Positions 1,007 through 28,443 of a DNA stretch of 34,307 bases are shown here, piece after piece (the first letter of the stretch is position 1; every line of letters begins with the position of its first letter). The stretch comes from Coprothermobacterota bacterium. Its GTDB lineage: Bacteria; Caldisericota; JANLFM01. The position numbers were made by a program, and so were the translations under genes. The notes beneath the pieces are model-generated. The model worked only from the letters and a program-made list of their open reading frames with translations, did not search any database and was not told where the DNA came from. The stretch spans positions 1-34,307 of the forward strand of contig JAPLHW010000060.1 of the NCBI GenBank assembly GCA_026389425.1, in the 5' to 3' direction.

Positions 1007-1027
1007 GCTTTCGTGCCAGAGGAGAGA

Positions 1028-1678
1028 ATGAGGACGGAAAAATTGCTGCCGCAGGCTGCTAAATTGAGCCCAACCCTGCCGAATCTGCTGATTGTGCTTT
1101 CCGGCCCTTCCGGGGTGGGAAAAGGAACCTTAGTGCAGCGATATCTAGAAGCTCACCCACGAACATTTCTCTCGACCTCTGCAACCACACGGTTACCGCG
1201 TAGTTGCGAGCAAGACGGGGTGCACTATTGCTTCTTGGAAATCGACCGTTTCCAGGAGATGCGGAAGCGTGGGGAACTGTTGGAATGGGCCGAGGTCTTC
1301 GGTGACCTTTACGGCAGCCCTCGCCGACCGGTGGAGAAGGCGCTAGCGGAAGGCCGCGACGTTATCCTGGAGATCGATGTGCAAGGAGGGCTTAAAGTCC
1401 GTCAGGCGATTCCCGAGGCGGTTCTGCTTTTCGTGCTTCCGCCCACCTTCGAGGAGCTCTCCCGTCGTCTCTGCGCTCGGCGCACCGAAAGCCCGGAGCG
1501 GATCGAGTTTCGCCTGCAGACGGCCCGCCTTGAGCTGCAAGCCCTTCCGCAGTATGATTACCTACTTGTGAACGACCGCCTGGAGGAAGCGGTTGCCGCT
1601 ATTCGCTCGATCGTCGAGGCGGAGCGGCACCGCATCAGCCGGATCGTCCCCAAGCAGGAAGGAGATTGGCTGAAATGA
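1028..1678 (+). CDS. gmk: Guanylate kinase
   Basis: LLIVLSGPSGVGKGTLV P-loop, TSATTRLPR; ATG 1028 preceded by GAGGAGA. The ORF-track start (GTG 1013) is less likely. Confidence 0.93.
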   Translation: MRTEKLLPQAAKLSPTLPNLLIVLSGPSGVGKGTLVQRYLEAHPRTFLSTSATTRLPRSCEQDGVHYCFLEIDRFQEMRKRGELLEWAEVFGDLYGSPRRPVEKALAEGRDVILEIDVQGGLKVRQAIPEAVLLFVLPPTFEELSRRLCARRTESPERIEFRLQTARLELQALPQYDYLLVNDRLEEAVAAIRSIVEAERHRISRIVPKQEGDWLK

Positions 1679-1863
1679 TGTTCCCACCCTTGGAGCTGCT
1701 ATTGGAGGAGATGAAAGAGAACAAGTATTGTCTGGTCGTGGTTGCCGCCAAGGAAGCTCACCGTCTTTCCAAGCGGCAGTCAGCCCGTGCCGGACATCCG
1801 CTCTCGGCAGCCTTGACATCCATCTACGAAGGAAAGGTGGAGGTACTCGAGCCCGGCGAGTGA
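1675..1863 (+). CDS. rpoZ: DNA-directed RNA polymerase omega subunit
   Basis: Small ORF MMFPPLELLLEEMKENKYCLVVVAAKEAHRLSKR..., immediately after gmk (canonical gmk-rpoZ order). Confidence 0.88.
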   Translation: MMFPPLELLLEEMKENKYCLVVVAAKEAHRLSKRQSARAGHPLSAALTSIYEGKVEVLEPGE

Positions 1864-3872
1864 CGGAAGGATTATTCCGTTCCCTGATCCTCGTTGAAGT
1901 CCCCCTACCGCCGGGAGAGGGACTTTTTTCGTATACGAGCGAGGAGCCGCTGATTCCTGGAGAACGCGTCACCGTCCCATTGGGCAAGTCGAACCGGGCG
2001 GTGAGCGGGTTGGTCCTCGGGGAGGATCCGTCCACCTTTTCGACCGAGTCGCTGAAGCCAATCCTATGCCGTAGCCGGAAGGTGGCCTTCGATCGAATCC
2101 GGGCACAGTGGTTGCTCTGGCTCTGGTGTCATTATTTATCCGGCTCGCAGGCCATCTGCCGGGCCATTCGGGTGGAGGTGGGAGTGGTGGTTCGCTTGCT
2201 TCTCTCCCCTCTAGAGGTGAGGACTCTGGAGGGGACTTTGGCGACTACTCCAGGTTACAGGCAACTGCTGGATTGGCTGGTGGGGGAGGGGGGGGTGGCC
2301 GACAAGGTAGATTGCCCACAGCCTGGATTATTAAAGAGGGCAGCTTGTCGTGGTTGGCTGCAAGTGGAAGAGCGAACCCTCCTACCGGGTGTTCCTTGTT
2401 CTGCAGGAGAGAGTCGTGAGTTGGTTTGGGCACCTTGGCGCCAACAACTAGACCGCCTCCTCGAGCTGGTGACCTCGGTGAGGAATGCTGGTCATCAATG
2501 TCTGATCCTGGTACCGGAGGTTTCCCTGGCCGAAACCCTAACTTCGCGCTTGCGCGAAGACGGGGTTTCGGCTTACCCCTATCTAGGCGACCGTTCTCCC
2601 CGGGCCCGCGTCCAGGCTGTACGACGCGCTCAAGGAGAGGAGCCTGCCGTTTGGGTGGGTCATCTTCTAGCCCTCTTCCTCCCTTTCCGCCGCTTGGGCG
2701 GGGTTCTCGTGCTGCAGGAGGAAAGCCTCGGCTATCGCCCCCGAGCCCCCCTTCATCTACCCCTCGTCCCAGCGGCAAGCCGCCTGGCAGCCCTTTGCGG
2801 TGCCCGCCTGGCCCTCTTCTCCCGCGCTCCTTCGATGGAATCCTACTTAGAGACGTACCGCGGCCTCTCCCTGTCTTATCAACCGCCCGTCCACTTGGCA
2901 AAGCGCCAGCTGGTCGTTCAGCGCAGTGCCAAGGGGCTCTCCCCAACACTTTTAGCCGGAATCCGAACGACTTCCCGGGTCGGGAAACGCTCGCTGGTCT
3001 ACATTAACCGATTGGGGTACGCTCACATCCTCCTTTGCCGGGAATGTGGAGAGACCTTTTTTTGCCCTCACTGCGCAGTCTCCCTCACGCCGCACAGCCG
3101 TCAGCTGGTTTGCCATTATTGCGGTCACCGGGAGGAGATCCCGGCTCTCTGTCCGACTTGCCGGAGCCCTTCGCTAGAGGCTTGGGGAGCAGGGATCGAA
3201 CGCCTGGAGGAAGTGTTGTTGAAGGAGGTTGAGGGCGGGCTCGTCTTTCGACTGGACGCGCAATCGGAGGAGGGACAGCAGGGGCGGGAAGATCTGCTGG
3301 AGCGTTTTCGCCGCACGCCGGGGGCGATCCTGTTGACCACCAGCCGTCTACGCGGTTCCTCCCTGCCGCCTGTTTCCTTCCTAGCCGTCTTGAACGCCGA
3401 CCAAGCTCTTAACCGGCCGAGCTTTCGCGCTACCGAGCGGGCTTTCCAATTGTTGGCCAACCTGGAACCGCTAGCCCGGGAGCGTTTTTTCCTTCAGGCC
3501 GGCAGCCTTCGCGGCACCGAGCGCCTGCTGCAACCCGGCCCCTCGTTCTATCGCCAGGAGCTGGAAGCTCGCAAACAAGCCGGTTTCCCTCCTCACATCC
3601 GCCTCCTGCGTCTACTCTTTATGGGGAGGGAGGAAGAGAGCGTTTGGAAAGCAGCCCAACTTTTTCGCCAGCACTTGCTAGACGCTCAACTGCCGTTCTC
3701 TCTCACCGGGCCTTTAGCCGCAGCCTATCCGCGCCTGCAAGGACTCTGGCGAGTGGAGTTGCTGGCTCGTTTTGATATCGGGCCATTGCCGGAAGAGGTC
3801 CGGCCACTCCTCGCTTTCCGCTCTCCCCGCGGGGGAGTGCACCTTTCTGTTGAACTTGATCCGGAGGATTGA
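1860..3872 (+). CDS. priA: Primosomal protein N' (PriA), apparently helicase-deficient variant
   Basis: N-terminal PriA-like region, 8-Cys zinc motif CRECGETFFCPHC...CHYCG...CPTC, NADQALNRPSFRATERAFQLL; GTG start at 1860 overlaps rpoZ stop. ATPase motifs degenerate (see findings). Confidence 0.9.
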   Translation: MTEGLFRSLILVEVPLPPGEGLFSYTSEEPLIPGERVTVPLGKSNRAVSGLVLGEDPSTFSTESLKPILCRSRKVAFDRIRAQWLLWLWCHYLSGSQAICRAIRVEVGVVVRLLLSPLEVRTLEGTLATTPGYRQLLDWLVGEGGVADKVDCPQPGLLKRAACRGWLQVEERTLLPGVPCSAGESRELVWAPWRQQLDRLLELVTSVRNAGHQCLILVPEVSLAETLTSRLREDGVSAYPYLGDRSPRARVQAVRRAQGEEPAVWVGHLLALFLPFRRLGGVLVLQEESLGYRPRAPLHLPLVPAASRLAALCGARLALFSRAPSMESYLETYRGLSLSYQPPVHLAKRQLVVQRSAKGLSPTLLAGIRTTSRVGKRSLVYINRLGYAHILLCRECGETFFCPHCAVSLTPHSRQLVCHYCGHREEIPALCPTCRSPSLEAWGAGIERLEEVLLKEVEGGLVFRLDAQSEEGQQGREDLLERFRRTPGAILLTTSRLRGSSLPPVSFLAVLNADQALNRPSFRATERAFQLLANLEPLARERFFLQAGSLRGTERLLQPGPSFYRQELEARKQAGFPPHIRLLRLLFMGREEESVWKAAQLFRQHLLDAQLPFSLTGPLAAAYPRLQGLWRVELLARFDIGPLPEEVRPLLAFRSPRGGVHLSVELDPED

Positions 3873-3873
3873 T

Positions 3874-4806
3874 ATGCGCATCATCTTTTTCGGCAGCCCG
3901 GTCTTCGCGATTCCAGCGCTGGACGCTCTGGCAGTCTCACCCTACCGGCCTCTGGCCGTCGTCACCAAGCCTGACCAACCACAAGGTCGTGGACTGCGAC
4001 TGCAACCCACGGCAGTTCGCCAACGAGCGGAGTCGCTGGGCCTTCCTGTCCACGCGCCCGTCTCCCTAGCCGACCCTCATTTCCAGAATATCTTGCGGGA
4101 TCTCCAGCCCGACTTCTTCGTGGTAGTGGCTTTCTCCATCTTGCCCAAGTCCCTGCTGGCCATTCCCCGCCGGGGAAGTTGCAACATCCATCCCTCGCTT
4201 TTGCCGGCCTATCGCGGGGCAGCGCCGGTAGAAAGGGCACTTCTAGCGGGCGAGGAGCGCACCGGCGTGTCCCTGATATGGTTACAGGAGAAGGTCGACC
4301 GCGGCCCCTTGATTAGCCAGGAGGAGACCCCCATCGCTCCCTTCGAGACTGCAGGGGAGCTGCACTGGCATCTTAGCCGGCAAGGAGCCGACCTGCTGTT
4401 GCGGACGATACCGTTGGTGGAGGATGGCAGTTGCCCCTCAGTACGGCAGGATGACAGCCTAGCCTCTTGGGCGCCGAAGATCGGCGAAGAGGACTGCCGC
4501 ATCCGCTGGGAGGAGCCCGCCCTGGCCAGCCACAACCGCGTCCGTGCTCTCAACCCATCCCCAGGCGCCTATACCACATGGCCTGGGAAGAGTCGCACGG
4601 TACGCTTGAAAATATGGCGAGCACACCCGCTGGAAGAGCAAGGTCTGAAGCCCGGGGAAATCAGTGTGATCGGGGACCGGCTCGTTATCGGCTGCGGGTC
4701 AGGAGCCCTGGCAGTGGAGTTGCTGCAGCAAGAGGGGAAGAAGCCACTGGAAGCCTCCGCTTTCCTGCGTGGAGCTGGTTTGCACCAGGGGGAGCGCTGG
4801 GGATGA
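3874..4806 (+). CDS. fmt: Methionyl-tRNA formyltransferase
   Basis: MRIIFFGSPVFAIPALDAL, NIHPSLLPAYRGAAPVERALL; ATG 3874 with GGAGG upstream. Confidence 0.93.
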   Translation: MRIIFFGSPVFAIPALDALAVSPYRPLAVVTKPDQPQGRGLRLQPTAVRQRAESLGLPVHAPVSLADPHFQNILRDLQPDFFVVVAFSILPKSLLAIPRRGSCNIHPSLLPAYRGAAPVERALLAGEERTGVSLIWLQEKVDRGPLISQEETPIAPFETAGELHWHLSRQGADLLLRTIPLVEDGSCPSVRQDDSLASWAPKIGEEDCRIRWEEPALASHNRVRALNPSPGAYTTWPGKSRTVRLKIWRAHPLEEQGLKPGEISVIGDRLVIGCGSGALAVELLQQEGKKPLEASAFLRGAGLHQGERWG

Positions 4807-5834
4807 TCTTCCAATTGAGCTACGAGGAGCTGGCCGCCTACTTGGCTTCCCGCGGTGAGGCAGCCTACCGCAGCGAACAGGTCTGGGGTTGGCTCTACCG
4901 TCAATCAGTGTCCTCCTTCGAGGAGATGATCACCCTCTCTCTCCCGCTACGCCGGCATCTGGAGGCTGATCATCCCGGCTCTTTCCCGGAATTGATCGAT
5001 CGCGCCATCTCCCGCGACGGAAGTGAGAAGGTCCTTTGGGCGCTGGCCGACGGCGAACTGGTGGAGTCCGTCCTCTTGCAGACCGAGACCCGGGAGGGGA
5101 GCTGGACCTCCGCCTGTCTTTCCACCCAGGTTGGCTGCCCGATGGGTTGCTCGTTCTGTGCCACCGGGCAGGCCGGCTTTCGCCGCAACCTGACCGCTGG
5201 GGAGATCCTTGCCCAATTGGTCGGCCTGCGAGCAAAGAGCGGGGAGCGAGTCGGGCGGCTCTTACTGATGGGGATGGGTGAACCATTGCTGAACGTCGAT
5301 GCAGTGAAGAAAGCCATTCGACTGGCGCAAGACCCACGTGGTCTGTCCTTGGGAGGCCGCCGCATCACCCTTTCCACCGTTGCGCCGCGGAACCTGGCCC
5401 AGTTCCTGGCATCTGGCCCACATGTGGAGATGGCTCTCTCCCTTCACGCCCCCAACGACCTCCTGCGAGCTTCGCTGATCGAGCATGCGAATTCTTTGTT
5501 ACCCATTCGAACGGCTCTGGAGCTGCTGTATGACTACCGCCGAGAAGCCGGCCGGATGGTGACGGTGGAGTACCTCATGCTAGCGGAGATCAATGATACC
5601 TGGAGCCATGCCAAAGAACTGGCATCGTTGTTGGAGGGAAGTGCTTTTTTCGTCAATTTGCTGCCCTTCAACACCAGTCCCGGTCTACCCTACCGATCTT
5701 CCCCGGCTGAGCGCATCCGCGCTTTCGCTGAGGTTTTGCGTGCTTCCGGACTGACGGTGAAGATCCGCAAGCCCCGCGGAGCGGATATTGGGGGAGCTTG
5801 CGGGCAACTGCGGGGGCAACGGTCCCTCAGCTAG
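4803..5834 (+). CDS. rlmN: 23S rRNA/tRNA adenine C2-methyltransferase RlmN (radical SAM)
   Basis: Radical SAM CPMGCSFCATG cluster, STQVGC, MGMGEPLLN; ATGA overlap with fmt stop. Confidence 0.94.
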   Translation: MIFQLSYEELAAYLASRGEAAYRSEQVWGWLYRQSVSSFEEMITLSLPLRRHLEADHPGSFPELIDRAISRDGSEKVLWALADGELVESVLLQTETREGSWTSACLSTQVGCPMGCSFCATGQAGFRRNLTAGEILAQLVGLRAKSGERVGRLLLMGMGEPLLNVDAVKKAIRLAQDPRGLSLGGRRITLSTVAPRNLAQFLASGPHVEMALSLHAPNDLLRASLIEHANSLLPIRTALELLYDYRREAGRMVTVEYLMLAEINDTWSHAKELASLLEGSAFFVNLLPFNTSPGLPYRSSPAERIRAFAEVLRASGLTVKIRKPRGADIGGACGQLRGQRSLS

Positions 5835-7894: not shown

Positions 7895-9518
7895 GGAGAA
7901 GGGGGCGCTCGCAGGCCGGACCGAGCTGACCTACACCGAGCTGATGCAGCTACTGGAGGCTGCTACGGCTCATCTGGAACGAAACAAAGAGATCGTCAAC
8001 GCACTGAACGTCTTCCCTGTCCCCGATGGGGATACCGGAACCAATATGTTGCTCACGTTACAGTCTACCTTGGACGAGCTGCGCCGTTCCCCGTTACACT
8101 CGATGCGGGAATTCGCCGAGGCAACCACACGGGGCTCCCTGTTGGGCGCCCGAGGGAACTCCGGAGTGATCCTCTCCCAGCTCTTCCGTGGATTCGGACG
8201 CTCTTTCGACTCTAAAGAGACAATTACCACGCACGATCTGGCGGAAGCTTTTGTCGAAGCCTCTCGCACGGCCTACAAGGCCGTGATGAAGCCGGTGGAA
8301 GGAACCATGTTGACGGTAGCCCGAGAGGCTGGCAAGACCGCGCTCTTGGTCCAGGACGAGACCCGTATTGACGAGTTCCTCGCAGCCGTACTGCATTCCG
8401 CCCGCCGAACTTTGGCCAACACCCCCAACCTGTTGCCGATCCTACGCGAGGCTGGGGTGGTCGATTCCGGCGGGAGTGGCCTGGTTTTCCTGCTGGAAGG
8501 TGCGCTGGCCTGCTTGCGCGGGGAGCGCCTGGAAACGCATGGCTTGACCGCACAAGCCTCCTTCGACAACGAGGAAGCCTTCGCCGAAGAGCTGAACTTC
8601 CGTTATGATATTCAATTTCTCCTTCGTGATTGCCATTTCAGTCATCGAGAGGTGGAGGAGCGTTTCATCCCCCTGGGCGATTCGCTATTGGTGATCGGGG
8701 ATCCGGCCCTCCTGCGGGTCCACGTCCACAGCAACCTACCAGCCCAGGTGTTAGACTTGGCTTCCCGGATCGGCACCCTCGATCAGGTCACCATGGAGGA
8801 TATGTTGCAGCAGCACCAAGAGTTCAAGGAGAGAGGGAAAACCCCGCCCCCCCGAGGCGTCGCCCTGGCCGTGGTGGCCGCCGGAGCCGGTTTCGAGGAG
8901 ATCTTCAGCAGCCTGGGAGTGGCCAAGTTGATTCCAGGCGGGCAATCGATGAACCCTTCCACCAAAAATATCCTCAACGCCATCGATGCCAGCGAATGCC
9001 AAGAGTGGGTGATCTTGCCCAATAACAGCAACGTCATCGGCGCAGCCCTCCAAGCGAAGAGCATCTCCGGAAAGAAGCTCTCCGTTCTTCCGACCCACAA
9101 TCTGCCCCAGGGCATATCGGCTTGCCTGGCCTACAGCGAGGACTGCACCCTGGAGGAGAATGTGCTGAAGATGGAGCGGGCTATTAAACGGGTACATTGC
9201 GGCGAGATCACGTACGCTGTACGCGATGGCTGCGTCAATGGAGTGACCTTCCAAGTTGGCGAGGTCATCGGCTTGGTGGACGACGAGCTGATGGAAGTAG
9301 GGGAAGACCCGGGTGCTGTCAGCTGCAGAGTGGTTCGAAAGCTGATCGAGCGAACTCATCCCGAAGTGGTGGTAACGCTCTACCGCGGGGAGGAGGCTGC
9401 CGAGGAAGAGGCTGAAGAGCTGCGGGACCAGCTGGCCGCGGAGTTCCCTCAGGCTGAGTTTGAGCAGCACTACGGCGGACAGCCCTTCTACTATTACATC
9501 ATCTCCCTCGAGGAGTGA
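7884..9518 (+). CDS. fakA: DAK2 domain fatty acid kinase-like protein (FakA/YloV)
   Basis: [44 protein letters not shown], and C-terminal FakA-type domain. Confidence 0.9.
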
Positions 9519-11605
9519 GCACTCTCTCTTGGGCTGACCTGAACCAGCCGGTCCGCTTCATCAAAGGATTCGGCCCAGCTCGCGCCGAGACACTCGCCAA
9601 GGTCGGGGTGCAGACACTGCTGGATTTGCTCGGCTATTACCCGCGGGCTTATCAAGACCGCCGGGTTCTCGCCCCGATCCCACTCCTGCGCGACGGCCAG
9701 GTGGCGACCATCACTGGCGTGGTGCGATCCAGCGAGGAGTCGCGAGCACGCCCCGGCCTACGCTTGCTAAAGGTGGTCCTCGACGATGGTCGCGGTAGAG
9801 CCGAGCTCACGTGGTACAACCAGCCCTACCTGAAAAAAGAGTTTCCACCCGGGCGCGAGTTGATCGTCTCCGGTAAGGTGACGCGTCGCTATGGCGCGAT
9901 TCAGCTAAACACCCCAGACTGGGAACCGGTCGACGAAGACCGCGACCCTCTCCACAGCGGGCGCATCGTCCCGATCTACCCACTCACCGCAGGTCTCAGC
10001 CAACGAGGCTTCCGCGCCAAGATGAGAGATGTGGTGAACCACTACGCTGCTCAGATCCCCGAGTTTCTTCCCCCCTCCATCCTTCGGGAAGAGCGTCTTC
10101 TGCCATGGAACGAGGCATTGGCGGCCATTCACTTTCCAGAAGACGACGGGCGATTGGAACAGGCCCGGGAGCGGCTGTCCTTCGAGGAGCTGTTCCTTTT
10201 ACAGCTCGGGTTCGCCCTGCGATGGCAAGGACGCAAGGAAGAGAAGGGGATCGCTTTGCGGGCAGAGGGGCCTCTGCTGGAGCAGTTTACCGGCAGTCTG
10301 CCCTACCGGTTGACGGAAGGTCAAACCCAGGCCTTGGAAGAGCTGAAGCGTGAGCTACGCTCGCCCAAGCCGATGAATCGTTTGCTGCAAGGAGAGGTCG
10401 GCTCGGGCAAGACGGTGCTCGCCGTCTATGCCATCCTGGCGGCGGTGCAATCCGGTTACCAGGCTGCTTTGATGGCGCCTACCGAGATCCTCGCCAGCCA
10501 GAACTATATGGTATTGCGCTCTTTCCTGCACGGTATCCCCACCCAGATGGCTTTGCTCACCAGCTCCACCAAGAGCAAAGAACGAGCCACCTTGCTGGAA
10601 GGGTTGGCTGATGGTTCAGTGCAGATCGCTGTGGGGACTCACGCCTTGCTCGAGGAGGGAGTCCACTTCCGCCATTTAGGACTGGTGGTGATCGACGAGC
10701 AGCACCGCTTCGGTGTGATGCAGCGCAAGCTCCTGCGTGAGAAAGGGGCCAGCCCGGACGTGCTAGTGTTGACCGCCACCCCGATCCCGCGCAGCCTGGC
10801 CCTCACTCTTTATGGCGACCTCGACGTGAGCACCATCCAAGGCTTACCGGACAACCGACAGCCGATCACGACCTACCTAGTGGCCAAGGAGCGGATAGAA
10901 GAGGTGTACAAGTTCATCCGCCGCGAGGTCGGTGAGGGAGGACAAGCTTACATTGTTTGTCCCTTGGTGGAAGAGAAGGAGAGAGCCGAGGAGCTGGCAG
11001 CTCGTGCTGCGACCAGCTTGATGAAAGACCTCCAGTCCAGCATCTTCCCCGACCTCAGCCTGGGCCTGCTGCACGGACGAATGGGAGGGAATGAGAAGGA
11101 GGCGGTGATGGCCGACTTTAAGGAGAGGCGAATCCAAGTTTTGGTGAGCACTACGGTGGTGGAGGTAGGGGTGGATGTGCCGAACGCCAACCTGATGGTC
11201 ATCTGGGACGCCGACCGTTTCGGCTTGGCCCAACTACACCAGTTACGCGGACGGGTCGGGCGGGGAGAGCGCAAGTCATACTGCGTCCTGCTAGCCAACC
11301 CAAAAAGCGAGGAGGCACGGCGGCGTTTGGAGGTGATGGTCTCCACCCAGGACGGCTTTGTGATCTCGGCTGAAGACTTGAAGATTCGTGGGCCGGGGGA
11401 GTTCTTTGGCACCCAACAGTCCGGCAGCTTTGATCTAAAGCTGGTCAACCTTTTCGATCCGAGCACCTACAAGTTGCTTGACAGAGCTCGCGAGGCTGCT
11501 TTCCGCCTGGCCCAGAACCCACGCTCGCTAGAAGTTTACCCCCTGCTGAGGCAGCTTTTGACGAAACGTTTCCCGATGGGAAATGATCTGCCCCAGGTGG
11601 GCTGA
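9515..11605 (+). CDS. recG: ATP-dependent DNA helicase RecG
   Basis: LLQGEVGSGKTVLA, DEQHRFGVMQR, LTATPIPRSLALTLYGDLDVS, QLRGRVGRG. Confidence 0.96.
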   Translation: MSTLSWADLNQPVRFIKGFGPARAETLAKVGVQTLLDLLGYYPRAYQDRRVLAPIPLLRDGQVATITGVVRSSEESRARPGLRLLKVVLDDGRGRAELTWYNQPYLKKEFPPGRELIVSGKVTRRYGAIQLNTPDWEPVDEDRDPLHSGRIVPIYPLTAGLSQRGFRAKMRDVVNHYAAQIPEFLPPSILREERLLPWNEALAAIHFPEDDGRLEQARERLSFEELFLLQLGFALRWQGRKEEKGIALRAEGPLLEQFTGSLPYRLTEGQTQALEELKRELRSPKPMNRLLQGEVGSGKTVLAVYAILAAVQSGYQAALMAPTEILASQNYMVLRSFLHGIPTQMALLTSSTKSKERATLLEGLADGSVQIAVGTHALLEEGVHFRHLGLVVIDEQHRFGVMQRKLLREKGASPDVLVLTATPIPRSLALTLYGDLDVSTIQGLPDNRQPITTYLVAKERIEEVYKFIRREVGEGGQAYIVCPLVEEKERAEELAARAATSLMKDLQSSIFPDLSLGLLHGRMGGNEKEAVMADFKERRIQVLVSTTVVEVGVDVPNANLMVIWDADRFGLAQLHQLRGRVGRGERKSYCVLLANPKSEEARRRLEVMVSTQDGFVISAEDLKIRGPGEFFGTQQSGSFDLKLVNLFDPSTYKLLDRAREAAFRLAQNPRSLEVYPLLRQLLTKRFPMGNDLPQVG

Positions 11606-21407: not shown

Positions 21408-23798
21408 CTAACGGCGGCTTTTACTTAAGCGGGCGCGGGCATCGGCTCGCTTCAACCAGATGTTCACTAGCGGGGTGGCGATGAAGACGGAGGAGTAGGC
21501 GCCGGTAGTGATGCCAATCAGCAAACCCCAAGAGAAATCGGGGATGGTCGTGCCGACAAAGATCACCAGGGCTACAACCGCGAGCAAGGTGGTGAGGGTG
21601 GTGTTCATCGAGCGCACGAAGACCTGCTGGATGGAAGTGTTGATCAGTTCTGGGATGCTCTCTTTCTTGCGCAGGCGGAGGTTCTCGCGGACGCGGTCCA
21701 ATACTACCACGGTGTCCATTACCGAGTATCCGACCACGGTCAGCAACACTGCCACTAGCGGGCTGTTGGCCTCCAGGTAGAAGATGGCAAAGAAACCCAT
21801 AACGATGAAGATGTCATGGATCAAGGCGATGATAGTGGCTAAGCCGAAAGTGAACTGGAAGCGCAAGGAGACGTAAAGGGTAATCCCGGCGAGAGCAACC
21901 AGTACGGCCCAGAGGGCATTGAGCTGCAAGTCTTGGCCAACTACCGGCCCGACATAATCGCCGGCGAGCAGCTGGAGGGTAGGGAAGGTCTTTTTCAGCT
22001 CTCCGGTTACACGTGTGGTATCCTGCGAGGTCAATTCCTCCGTGCGCACCACCGCATCGTAATCGTTGACCGGTTGAACTTGTACATTAGGTACGCCCGC
22101 CTGGGCGAAGGCATTGGCCAGGGTAGCGGGGACCAGCTTCTCCGGGGCTTGCGTAGTCAATTCCAACCTGCTCCCTCCGGTGAAGTCGACACCGAGGTTA
22201 TAGGGCAACTGCTGGGGCCGGACGAACCAGTTCACACCGGCTACAGCCAGGGTGACAACGATCAGTGTGAGAGAGATCCCAAACCACAATTTGGTCCGCC
22301 CCATAAAGTCGAACTTGCCGATGCGAATCAGGGAGAAGTAGCCAGGATGCATGTTCAAGAGGGGCATGTTTTTGGCTGCCTTAGTTCCAGCCAAGAGGTC
22401 GACGAAAGCCCGGGTGACGAAGACAGCAGTGAAGAGGGAAACCAGGATGCCCAAAGCAAGGGTGATAGAGAAGCCGCGGATGGCGCCGGTGCCGAACCAG
22501 TAAAGGGCGGCAGCAGCGATCAGGGTGGTGGCATTGGAGTCGATGACCGTGCGGAAGGCCTTGGTGAAGCCTGCAGCGATGGCTCCCCGGAAGGTTTTTC
22601 CGGCAAAGATTTCCTCGCGCATGCGCTCGAAGATCAACACGTTGGCATCCACCGCCATCCCGATAGAGAGGATCACACCGGCGATGCCGGGCAGAGTGAG
22701 GGTGGCTCCCAGCAGCTTAAGCAAAGCCAGGACAAGGATCACATAGAAGACCAAGGCGACATCTGCCAGCAGGCCGAGTAGACGGTAGTTGAGGATCATG
22801 AAGAGGAAGACCAATAGAATGGCGACGATCCCTGCGATGATTGATGCTTGGATAGCCGCTTCACCCAAGGTGGGGTTGACGGTGCGCTCCTCAGCGATGA
22901 CCAGCTTTACTGGCAATGCGCCGCCGCGCAGCAGAGTGGCGATGCTGGAGGCCTCGTCGATGGTGAACTTGCCGGTTAGCCGGGCTTCGCCGGAGGGAAT
23001 CTGCTCTTGCACAGTGCCGGCGAAGACAATGTCATTGTCCAGCACGGTGTAGATCATCTTGTTGACCATCTCTTGGGTCAATTGGGCGAAGATGGTGGTT
23101 CCTTCAGCACTGAACTTGATCGAGACCTCAGGCTCGCCATTTTTCCCGAAAGCAGCCTTGGCGTCGGTTAGATAGCGGCCGGTGATCCCCACATCGCCGC
23201 GGGGGAGGCTGAGCTGGGTGCCGGGGGTAGGGGTGATGGTCTGGGCAGCCTTTTCCGGGCTTTCGAAGCCGGGCTCGGTAGCGCTGTTACCACCGATGAT
23301 GGCGTATTTTCGCTCTCCCGTAGGACTATAGTAGAGCAAGATCATCGGGATCCCGCTGCGCGTTTCGACCAAGATGGTCGGCGTCAAGACATCCCCGTTG
23401 GTGCTGGTGCGGGTAGCCAGATCGGAAGCGGTCAGGACGACTCGTTCCCGCGCGACGATAAACTCCAGTAATGCAGTACGGCCGAGGATCTCACGGGCCT
23501 TGGCCGGGTCTTGGTAGCGGGGCAGATCGACAATGATCCGGTTCCAGCGATCCCCCCCCTGTTGCTGGATGATCGGCTCACTGAGGCCCAAGGCATTGAC
23601 GCGTTGGGAGAGCACCCTGCGAGCGGCATCGACTCCTTCTCGGGTCAGCGGGGCTCCCGGGGAGTCCACTGCCTCCAAGGTGAAGTGAACGCCACCGGCT
23701 AGGTCTAGACCAAACCGGAGCGGCATCAGGAAATAGACCGCGATGCCTCCTGCCAAGATGAGAAGGATCAGGATGATGCGAAATGTTTGGTTCTTCAA
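21408..23798 (-). CDS. secDF: Fused protein translocase subunit SecDF (TTG start)
   Basis: SecD: GLDLAGGVHFTLE, GGRWNRIIVDLPRYQDPAKAREILGRTALLEF; SecF: YNLGVDFTGGSRLEL, DTVVVLDRVRENLR. SD AAGGAG upstream of TTG. Confidence 0.95.
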   Translation of the reverse strand: MKNQTFRIILILLILAGGIAVYFLMPLRFGLDLAGGVHFTLEAVDSPGAPLTREGVDAARRVLSQRVNALGLSEPIIQQQGGDRWNRIIVDLPRYQDPAKAREILGRTALLEFIVARERVVLTASDLATRTSTNGDVLTPTILVETRSGIPMILLYYSPTGERKYAIIGGNSATEPGFESPEKAAQTITPTPGTQLSLPRGDVGITGRYLTDAKAAFGKNGEPEVSIKFSAEGTTIFAQLTQEMVNKMIYTVLDNDIVFAGTVQEQIPSGEARLTGKFTIDEASSIATLLRGGALPVKLVIAEERTVNPTLGEAAIQASIIAGIVAILLVFLFMILNYRLLGLLADVALVFYVILVLALLKLLGATLTLPGIAGVILSIGMAVDANVLIFERMREEIFAGKTFRGAIAAGFTKAFRTVIDSNATTLIAAAALYWFGTGAIRGFSITLALGILVSLFTAVFVTRAFVDLLAGTKAAKNMPLLNMHPGYFSLIRIGKFDFMGRTKLWFGISLTLIVVTLAVAGVNWFVRPQQLPYNLGVDFTGGSRLELTTQAPEKLVPATLANAFAQAGVPNVQVQPVNDYDAVVRTEELTSQDTTRVTGELKKTFPTLQLLAGDYVGPVVGQDLQLNALWAVLVALAGITLYVSLRFQFTFGLATIIALIHDIFIVMGFFAIFYLEANSPLVAVLLTVVGYSVMDTVVVLDRVRENLRLRKKESIPELINTSIQQVFVRSMNTTLTTLLAVVALVIFVGTTIPDFSWGLLIGITTGAYSSVFIATPLVNIWLKRADARARLSKSRR

Positions 23799-25822: not shown

Positions 25823-26842
25823 CTACAGAATCAGCATCGCGTCCCCGAAGGAGAAGAAGCGGTAGCGAAGGTCCACAGCTTCCTGGTAGGCAGCGAAAAT
25901 TTGTCCACGCGAGGCAAAGGCTGAAACGAGGAGGAGCAAAGTGCTCTTGGGCAGATGAAAGTTGGTAATGATAGCGTCGCAGGCGCAAAAAGGGAAGCCG
26001 GGGGTGATAAAGAGCGCGGTCAGGCCATTCATTGCTTGCACCTCCCCAGTGCTTCCAGCGGCCGTCTCCAAAGCCCGGACCACGGTTGTGCCGCAGGCAA
26101 AGACCTTCCCACCATTGCGGTGTGTCTCTCGAATGGCCGCAGCGGCAGCGATGCTCAAGCTGAACTCCTCTTCGTGCATCTGGTGGTCTTCGATCTCCTC
26201 GGCGCGGATGGGTCGGAAGGTGCCCAACCCGGCGTGAAGAGTCACCTCGACGCGGTTAACACCTTTGTTTTGTAAGGACCAGATTAGCTCGGGAGTGAAG
26301 TGAAGGCCGGCGGTGGGCGCCGCTACTGCCCCCCGCTTCTGGGCGAAGATGGTTTGGTAGTCCGAGTCAGTGCGCAGAGGAGCCTTGATGTAGGGTGGAA
26401 GGGGGATCTCGCCTTGCTCCTCCAGAAAATCCCAGTCGAAAGCGCTGAAACGCACGGTGCGGCCACCGAAGGAATTTCGGCTCTCCACTTGAATCTCTAC
26501 GCCATTCACTAAAAGCCGATCCCCGGGTTGCAGCTTGCGCCCCGGCCGGACCAAAGCTTCCCATCGCAGCAATTCTTCATCTAGTGGGCGTAGGAGAAAT
26601 ACCTCCCCTTTCCCTCCGGTGGGCAGGCGGCCATGGAGACGGGCGGCGATGACGCGTGTGTTGTTTACGACCAACAAGTCCCCGGGGACCATATAATCGA
26701 CGACATCGCGGAACAAGCGATGATGGATCTCTCCGGTGGCGCGGTCCAACACCAGCAGGCGAGCTGCGTCGCGTGGATTAACCGGGTGCTGGGCAATGAG
26801 TTCGGGGGGGAGGTGGTAGTCGTACGTGGCGATCTTGGTCAT
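25823..26842 (-). CDS. queA: S-adenosylmethionine:tRNA ribosyltransferase-isomerase
   Basis: MTKIATYDYHLPPELIAQHPVNPRDAARLLVLDR, VVNNTRVIAARL, AAPTAGLHFTPELI, ITNFHLPKSTLLLLVSAFA. ORF-track start (27154) is overlong. Confidence 0.95.
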   Translation of the reverse strand: MTKIATYDYHLPPELIAQHPVNPRDAARLLVLDRATGEIHHRLFRDVVDYMVPGDLLVVNNTRVIAARLHGRLPTGGKGEVFLLRPLDEELLRWEALVRPGRKLQPGDRLLVNGVEIQVESRNSFGGRTVRFSAFDWDFLEEQGEIPLPPYIKAPLRTDSDYQTIFAQKRGAVAAPTAGLHFTPELIWSLQNKGVNRVEVTLHAGLGTFRPIRAEEIEDHQMHEEEFSLSIAAAAAIRETHRNGGKVFACGTTVVRALETAAGSTGEVQAMNGLTALFITPGFPFCACDAIITNFHLPKSTLLLLVSAFASRGQIFAAYQEAVDLRYRFFSFGDAMLIL

Positions 26843-28443
26843 CAGTAACGCGTCTCCAACTGGATGCCGGTGTAGTAAGTCATAAGGATGGCAATGTAGC
26901 TCATCCCCTCCTCGGCGCGGGCCTTGGCTCCCCACTGCGGCATACCCAGGCCGTGGCCGTTGCCATGTCCGGTGAAGGTCAGGACAACACCTAAACCCGC
27001 CGTGGGAGAGGGAGTTGTCGAAGTGAAGGATAGAGGCCAGGGGCCTTCCGCGGCAAGGAGAATCGGTTGGTCCGGGGGGAAGGACGTCCCCAGGGAAGAG
27101 AGCAGGACTGCTCCCTTCATGGAGAGGCTTCCTAGGCCGGAAATGGACAGGCAAGCGATCATGGCATCACCTGCAGGTGGTTCCTCCTCTCCCGAAGGGA
27201 CAACACTTTGCCAGCTGGTAAGGCTGGAGCGCAACCCAGCTACCTGCCGCAGTTGCTCGCCGGTTAAAGTGCAGGTTCCCGCCGTCCCCTCCACCTGTAG
27301 CGTCTTGATACGTCCGGAGACGCCTTGTTCCAAGATCCTCAGGGAAACCAGATCTCCGAGCGTCACCCCCTTTTTCTTTTCGGCAGCCTCCATGAAAGCG
27401 CTGGTAGCTATGGTGGCAGTCCAGCTGAAGTATTTGTTGGCCTCCTCACCTGGACTGGAGACGCTTCGAAGGTAGGGGAGGGGTGGGCCGCTGAAGACGT
27501 TTTCGTTGTTCTCGGTAATCCCTCCCGAGCAGTCGTGGAAGAGGGCGCTAATTACCTCCCCGTTGTAGGTCAGGACTTGTCCGCGGGTACCGTCCACAGC
27601 TTGGTTACTGGCTTCCGCTTCTGCACTGTAACCTTTATAGACCTGGTCGGAGATGGTGCCGGTGAGGTCGTACCCTTCCGTCTCGCGGGGAGTCCCGCCC
27701 TGCAGCTTGCACAAGGCGTAGCTGCGGGCGGCCACTGCCTGTGCTTTTACCGCTTCCACCGCCCAATTGGGGTAGATCTCAGCAGGCAGGACGCCGTAGA
27801 GGTAGCTCTCTAGGTCTAGTTCATTGACCACGCGCAGAAGAGGTTCCTCGCCAGTTCGAAGGAAGACCTGCAGGCTGCCGCGGTAGCCCTTCCCCTCATA
27901 GGACAACGGTGCAGAAGAAGTGAATTGGAAGGCCACCCCACCCTTCCCGCCGGCCCACCCCAGGTCATAGGCGCGGTCTGTCTCCAGGAAAAAGGAGTAA
28001 CGGCCATTGACTACAGAGGCTCCAGGGAAGGAACTTGCGGAGCGGTTACGATCGGCTTCAGCCGCGCTTTGGCTGGGGTATGGTCCTAAAGAGAGGCTGA
28101 GAACCCCGGAGAGTTCAGCCAAAAGTGGTTTCCCTACTTGTCGCCAGAGGTCGGGAAAGGTGGAGACAGCTTGCTGCAGCGAGGAAACCGGACCCGCCTC
28201 CAGGATCACCCACCAAGGGTCGGTGAGAGGCCAGAGGGCGAGCGATTCCCCACCGGAGAAAGTAACTTGCCCTCCACTCGAGGGAAAGAGAACTTGCCAC
28301 GGAGAATCACCGCCAATCAAGCTGGCATTCGGGGAGGAGTCGAGCAATAGGCACAGAGACGGGGTCTCACTTCCTCCTCCGGCTGTGGTAATCGGCACCA
28401 AGAGCAAAACAATCAAGAGGAGGAGGCTAAGGGAAAAGCGCAT
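26842..28443 (-). CDS. SpoIID/LytB-domain protein with signal peptide
   Basis: RVVNELDLESYLYGVLPAEIYPNWAVEAVKAQAVAARSYAL, HDCSGGITENNENVF, GHGNGHGLGMPQWGAKARAEEGMSYIAILMTYYTG. Confidence 0.92.
   Translation of the reverse strand: MRFSLSLLLLIVLLLVPITTAGGGSETPSLCLLLDSSPNASLIGGDSPWQVLFPSSGGQVTFSGGESLALWPLTDPWWVILEAGPVSSLQQAVSTFPDLWRQVGKPLLAELSGVLSLSLGPYPSQSAAEADRNRSASSFPGASVVNGRYSFFLETDRAYDLGWAGGKGGVAFQFTSSAPLSYEGKGYRGSLQVFLRTGEEPLLRVVNELDLESYLYGVLPAEIYPNWAVEAVKAQAVAARSYALCKLQGGTPRETEGYDLTGTISDQVYKGYSAEAEASNQAVDGTRGQVLTYNGEVISALFHDCSGGITENNENVFSGPPLPYLRSVSSPGEEANKYFSWTATIATSAFMEAAEKKKGVTLGDLVSLRILEQGVSGRIKTLQVEGTAGTCTLTGEQLRQVAGLRSSLTSWQSVVPSGEEEPPAGDAMIACLSISGLGSLSMKGAVLLSSLGTSFPPDQPILLAAEGPWPLSFTSTTPSPTAGLGVVLTFTGHGNGHGLGMPQWGAKARAEEGMSYIAILMTYYTGIQLETRY

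Follow-up and report, generated by a model that had tools for sequence, protein, structure and literature searches.

We identified a full-length priA orthologue of 670 residues whose predicted product keeps the DNA-binding and zinc-binding parts of PriA and has lost the catalytic motifs of the helicase motor. The gene lies in a stretch of DNA of 34,307 nucleotides, here called the window, from an organism whose phylum is probably Caldisericota. Judging from its motifs, this protein has almost certainly lost both ATP hydrolysis and DNA unwinding. We consider it likely that the organism's genuine PriA has here become a pseudohelicase, which as a fork-binding scaffold would recruit the replicative helicase DnaB and do no unwinding.

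The gene order in the window is rluD-gmk-rpoZ-priA-fmt-rlmN (Table 1). The GTG start of priA overlaps the stop of rpoZ, which supports the start position used here. The order of this block is identical in three other members of the same family (L004–L006), which share the conserved neighbourhood gmk-rpoZ-priA-fmt with the window, and proximity of priA and fmt is found in other families of the phylum as well. The conserved order indicates that the gene stands in the place of an ordinary priA. The small rpoZ, which overlaps the end of gmk as well as the start of priA, falls below the 100-residue cut-off for open reading frames and had therefore been left unlisted. Elsewhere in the window, a protein with a SpoIID domain is encoded between the queuosine genes queA and tgt and the ruvABC genes; we know of no sporulation in this phylum. 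In addition, a single frame of 796 residues matches parts of both SecD and SecF, and the two genes are apparently fused.

Alignment with Escherichia coli PriA shows that five motor motifs have been replaced. The Walker A sequence GVTGSGKTEVY of E. coli corresponds to VWAPWRQQLDRL, Walker B (VIVIDEEH) to VLVLQEES, motif III (LGSATPALE) to LFSRAPSME, motif V (GTQMLAKG) to TTSRL-RG, and motif VI (VAGRAGRA) to NLEPLARE. A pattern search of the whole protein for Walker A, a DExx box or GRxGR found none, so an intact Walker A or B is not located elsewhere in the chain. The former Walker A site carries W-x-x-W-x-x-Q in all five family members compared (the window and L003–L006). The TIGR00595 priA model scores 221 bits against the protein, under the curated cut-off of 230.35, and its alignment begins at model position 15, just beyond Walker A.

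Other parts of PriA are retained. The 3'-DNA-binding and C-terminal domains are recognised by Pfam, and the zinc domain scores 25.1 bits, below its cut-off of 26, with all eight cysteines present (C393, C396, C402, C405, C418, C421, C431 and C434). The region between the 3'-DNA-binding domain and the motor is probably a winged helix, for which the similarity is weak and a Pfam search gave no match. Motif Ia (VPEVSL) and the NADQALNRPSFRATERAFQLL segment are also kept. The integrity of the two motor lobes is judged from sequence, since the structure predicted with the window protein and its near copy L002 as input has a mean pLDDT of 33. A preliminary description of this DNA, made from the letters alone, had reported the loss of Walker A, DEEH, SATPS and motif VI together with the retention of the eight cysteines and the conserved segment. 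The alignment bears out all of these losses and retentions, and translation confirms its coordinates and quoted residues for priA; the loss of motif V and the survival of motif Ia go beyond it.

Table 1. Position of priA, its parts and other features in the window
Feature	Position	Strand	Basis or remark
gmk	1013-1678		part of block around priA
rpoZ (omega subunit)	1675..1862	+	PF01192, 26.1 bits (cut-off 26)
priA coding sequence, putative PriA-family pseudohelicase	1860..3872	+	670 aa, GTG start; dN/dS 0.21 against sister genome
3'-DNA-binding domain, retained, residues 12-95	1893..2144	+	Pfam PF17764, 23.4 bits (cut-off 22.7)
probable winged-helix region, weakly conserved, residues 106-186	2175..2417	+	alignment position only
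site of former Walker A, LVWAPWRQQLD, residues 188-198	2421..2453	+	Gln in catalytic lysine column
site of former Walker B/DEEH, VLVLQEES, residues 282-289	2703..2726	+	alignment
site of former motif III SATPS, SRAPS, residues 321-325	2820..2834	+	alignment
cysteine-rich zinc region, eight Cys, residues 393-434	3036..3161	+	alignment; lowest dN/dS of any domain, 0.09
site of former motif V (GTQMxAKG to TTSRLRG)	3336..3356	+	alignment
site of former motif VI (VAGRAGR to NLEPLAR)	3459..3479	+	alignment
PriA C-terminal domain, retained, residues 578-668	3591..3863	+	Pfam PF18074, E 4e-7, above cut-off
fmt	3868..4806	+	part of block around priA
rlmN	4800-5834		part of block around priA
recG, fork-remodelling helicase that could supply unwinding	9515..11605	+	NF008168, 891 bits, above cut-off
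apparently fused secD/secF	21408-23798	-	796-aa single frame
SpoIID-domain protein	26842-28443	-	between queA, tgt and ruvABC

The genome to which the window belongs is in 278 contigs, and with such fragmentation the altered motifs might in principle reflect an assembly error, a frameshift or a decaying pseudogene. We regard this as extremely improbable and rejected it, as the relatives already refute it. The frame is open, and a sister genome that was assembled independently (a metagenome assembly of a Coprothermobacterota bacterium, LacPavin isolate; L002/L003) encodes a PriA that is 91% identical and has lost the same motifs in the same way, as have three further members of the family; all relatives agree. 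Between the window and the sister sequence, dN/dS is 0.21 overall and falls to 0.12 for the C-terminal domain and to 0.09 for the zinc region. The values for lobe 1 (0.20) and lobe 2 (0.24) indicate that the dead motor lobes are under selection as well.

We found no second PriA when the organism's own genome (87% complete) was searched with TIGR00595; the preliminary description had proposed a search for an intact second copy. The other matches to this model were RecG and a frame of 1234 residues that is probably Mfd. Because of the completeness of the genome the absence of an intact second priA is not fully assured; none of the more complete relatives shows such a gene.

The loss extends across the phylum. 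We searched 54 genomes of the phylum with the PriA model and read 36 PriA sequences representing all seven families. The best matches in the phylum have E-values no better than 1.7e-86, as against 1e-130 to 1e-204 for most other bacteria. By pattern count, none of the 36 sequences has Walker A, Walker B or motif VI, whereas these are present in 57, 58 and 58, respectively, of 58 intact controls from other phyla. Similarly, the Pfam DEAD and ResIII domains are detected in 22 of 22 intact members and in one of 26 members from the phylum, while the 3'-DNA-binding domain is detected in 22/22 and 22/26. In an alignment of 26 members of the phylum, the zinc cysteines do not vary at seven of their eight positions and hardly vary at the remaining one, and G34, P40, G445, R571 and P577-P578 are conserved as well. 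Profile comparison (hhalign) aligns the dead and intact PriAs over their whole length (Prob 100, E 3e-114).

The column of the former Walker lysine holds arginine in 29 of 34 aligned members of the phylum and glutamine in the window's family. This basic residue, together with the survival of motif Ia and of the general pattern of the lobes, would be compatible with an atypical site in PriA at which ATP is still bound or hydrolysed. We consider such a site very improbable, as the window PriA retains neither the P-loop glycines and the lysine nor the Walker B acid, motif V or the arginines of motif VI, and the substitution K230R alone abolishes the ATPase of E. coli PriA (PMC4504706).

PriA was not found in five genomes of the phylum (G019, G032, G038, G042 and G051), among which G019 is the only nearly complete one. 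In G019 (96% complete), searches with the window protein, the TIGR00595 model and the phylum alignment all found no PriA. The gene has possibly been lost completely or is fragmented there, and PriA may thus be dispensable in some members of the phylum. In the PriA gene tree, 29 of 34 members of the phylum form one group that also takes in two outsiders on long branches, and family f4 is placed separately on a very long branch. As this tree is mixed, a single loss within the phylum is supported mainly by the tree of rpoB and rpoC (2074 columns, 61 taxa, with a 700-column mixture model as a check). In the latter, the phylum and two Coprothermobacter-like genomes form one group (SH-aLRT 100 and 81), all of whose members are motor-dead.

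Outside the phylum, poor-scoring genomes were read, and strong-scoring ones in part, so the count of at least 19 genomes from 17 families with lost-motif PriAs is a lower bound. These comprise Coprothermobacter-like genomes and 16 other, scattered families. Motor-dead PriAs occur in L064, L067, L069, L070, L074–L078, L081, L082, L107, L191, L196, L198 and L199, and three very divergent sequences (L109, L110 and L111) were counted as dead on the basis of weak alignments together with the absence of the patterns. Partly degenerate forms are found in L073, L186 and L197. Arginine often occupies the Walker lysine position in motor-dead PriAs of the other families, too.

On the rpoB/rpoC tree the state of the motor changes at least 10 times with 2074 columns and at least 12 times in the 700-column check. 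Counted on well-supported branches alone with the intact label, there are about ten changes in the first analysis and five in the second. The number of changes indicates that loss of the PriA motor is recurrent. The preliminary description had suggested parallel loss; this stands at the scale of Bacteria, but the window PriA is no isolated oddity, as all 36 PriAs of its phylum and those of its Coprothermobacter-like neighbours are motor-dead.

Other motor-dead genomes lie low in the rpoB/rpoC tree, among them G071, G218, G174 and G194. By the sizes of their rpoB and rpoC, the pair G071 and G218 may be Thermus-like, and G174 and G194 resemble Thermotogota in size. Caldisericota, Coprothermobacterota, Thermotogota and perhaps Deinococcota have been grouped together (PMC10356935). 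It is therefore conceivable, although we think it rather unlikely, that a single loss of the motor took place at a deep point in a superclade made up of Caldisericota, Coprothermobacterota and perhaps Deinococcota- and Thermotogota-like lineages, which would have inherited arginine at the Walker lysine from it, and that the motor disappeared several more times elsewhere. If this were so, restart without a motor would be old and widespread, and what was once the ATP pocket may now serve a different contact, for example through the W-x-x-W of the window's family.

As a scaffold, the window PriA would use its 3'-DNA-binding, zinc and C-terminal domains to recognise abandoned forks and would recruit DnaB with no ATP hydrolysis or unwinding. 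We guess that the loader DciA is probably its partner in this recruitment; for Caulobacter, a connection of DciA with PriA has been proposed, though not demonstrated (PMC9825169). If the lagging arm needs to be unwound at all, other helicases, for example RecG or UvrD/PcrA, would do this. The organism's own genome encodes DnaB, DciA and one helicase of the UvrD/PcrA type, and RuvABC is encoded in the window. The PriA fold could instead have been kept for another job, such as that of a zinc-dependent repair factor binding forks or single-stranded DNA, with restart following another route. This would accord with the fact that the dead lobes are under selection in their own right, as is the new W-x-x-W motif, and with the one near-complete member of the phylum seemingly lacking PriA. 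However, the window protein resembles an ordinary PriA in its neighbourhood, its domain order and the parts that are conserved best, and DnaB and DciA remain; we judge such a change of function improbable. The scaffold role is inferred by analogy, and the purely structural role proposed in the preliminary description is likewise a reasonable inference of that kind.

These observations suggest that the motor is optional in replication restart. E. coli mutants affected in the PriA ATPase are viable, and as E. coli lives without the motor, the reason why bacteria keep it is an open question (PMC4504706). A motor-less phylum with PriA under purifying selection and 17 further dead families allow the purpose of the motor to be studied by natural comparison, which could show the fork types, loaders or helicases that accompany its loss. 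Among the papers searched, none dealt with PriA in Caldisericota or Coprothermobacterota. Calling these genes 'PriA helicase' is a misannotation in many lineages, not just in the one phylum to which the 2015 paper drew attention for motor-dead PriA (PMC4504706).

Experiments have established the PriA of Deinococcus radiodurans as a pseudohelicase, which has no ATPase or helicase activity and binds forks and DnaB (PMC4504706, Lopper et al. 2015). Pseudohelicase PriA is thus already known, and what is new is a distribution wider than published. Like the D. radiodurans protein, the window orthologue has lost Walker A and Walker B and kept the zinc region. A change from lysine to arginine at Walker A is reported for PriA of Deinococcus-Thermus, and in E. 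coli PriA K230R abolishes the helicase as well as the ATPase activity (PMC4504706). Most of the window's phylum shares arginine in this column with Deinococcus-Thermus. In contrast, the window's own family has glutamine and W-x-x-W with no such change, has lost motifs III, V and VI too, and belongs to a different lineage. The lysine-to-arginine change is a feature of the Deinococcus-Thermus members and need not be present in every pseudohelicase of the PriA kind.

For actinobacterial PriA (NCBIfam PRK14873), UniProt notes no detectable helicase motifs. By this database description it resembles the window PriA in having lost these motifs and kept the PriA domains. However, the window protein scores 226 bits against the model of ordinary PriA (PRK05580) and 60 bits against PRK14873, and descent from actinobacterial PriA was rejected on these scores. 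The preliminary description had pointed to Actinobacteria as the precedent. Loss of helicase motifs is noted in databases for PriA of that group, and by profile scores the window PriA is not actinobacterial, but Actinobacteria are not the only precedent, since D. radiodurans PriA is a shown pseudohelicase (PMC4504706). With canonical PriA (E. coli; Klebsiella structure 4nl4), the window protein shares the 3'-DNA-binding domain, the zinc region, the C-terminal domain, the layout of the lobes and the segment ADxxLNxPxFRAxERxFQLL. It differs from canonical PriA in a shortened stretch before Walker A and in the loss of motifs I, II, III, V and VI.
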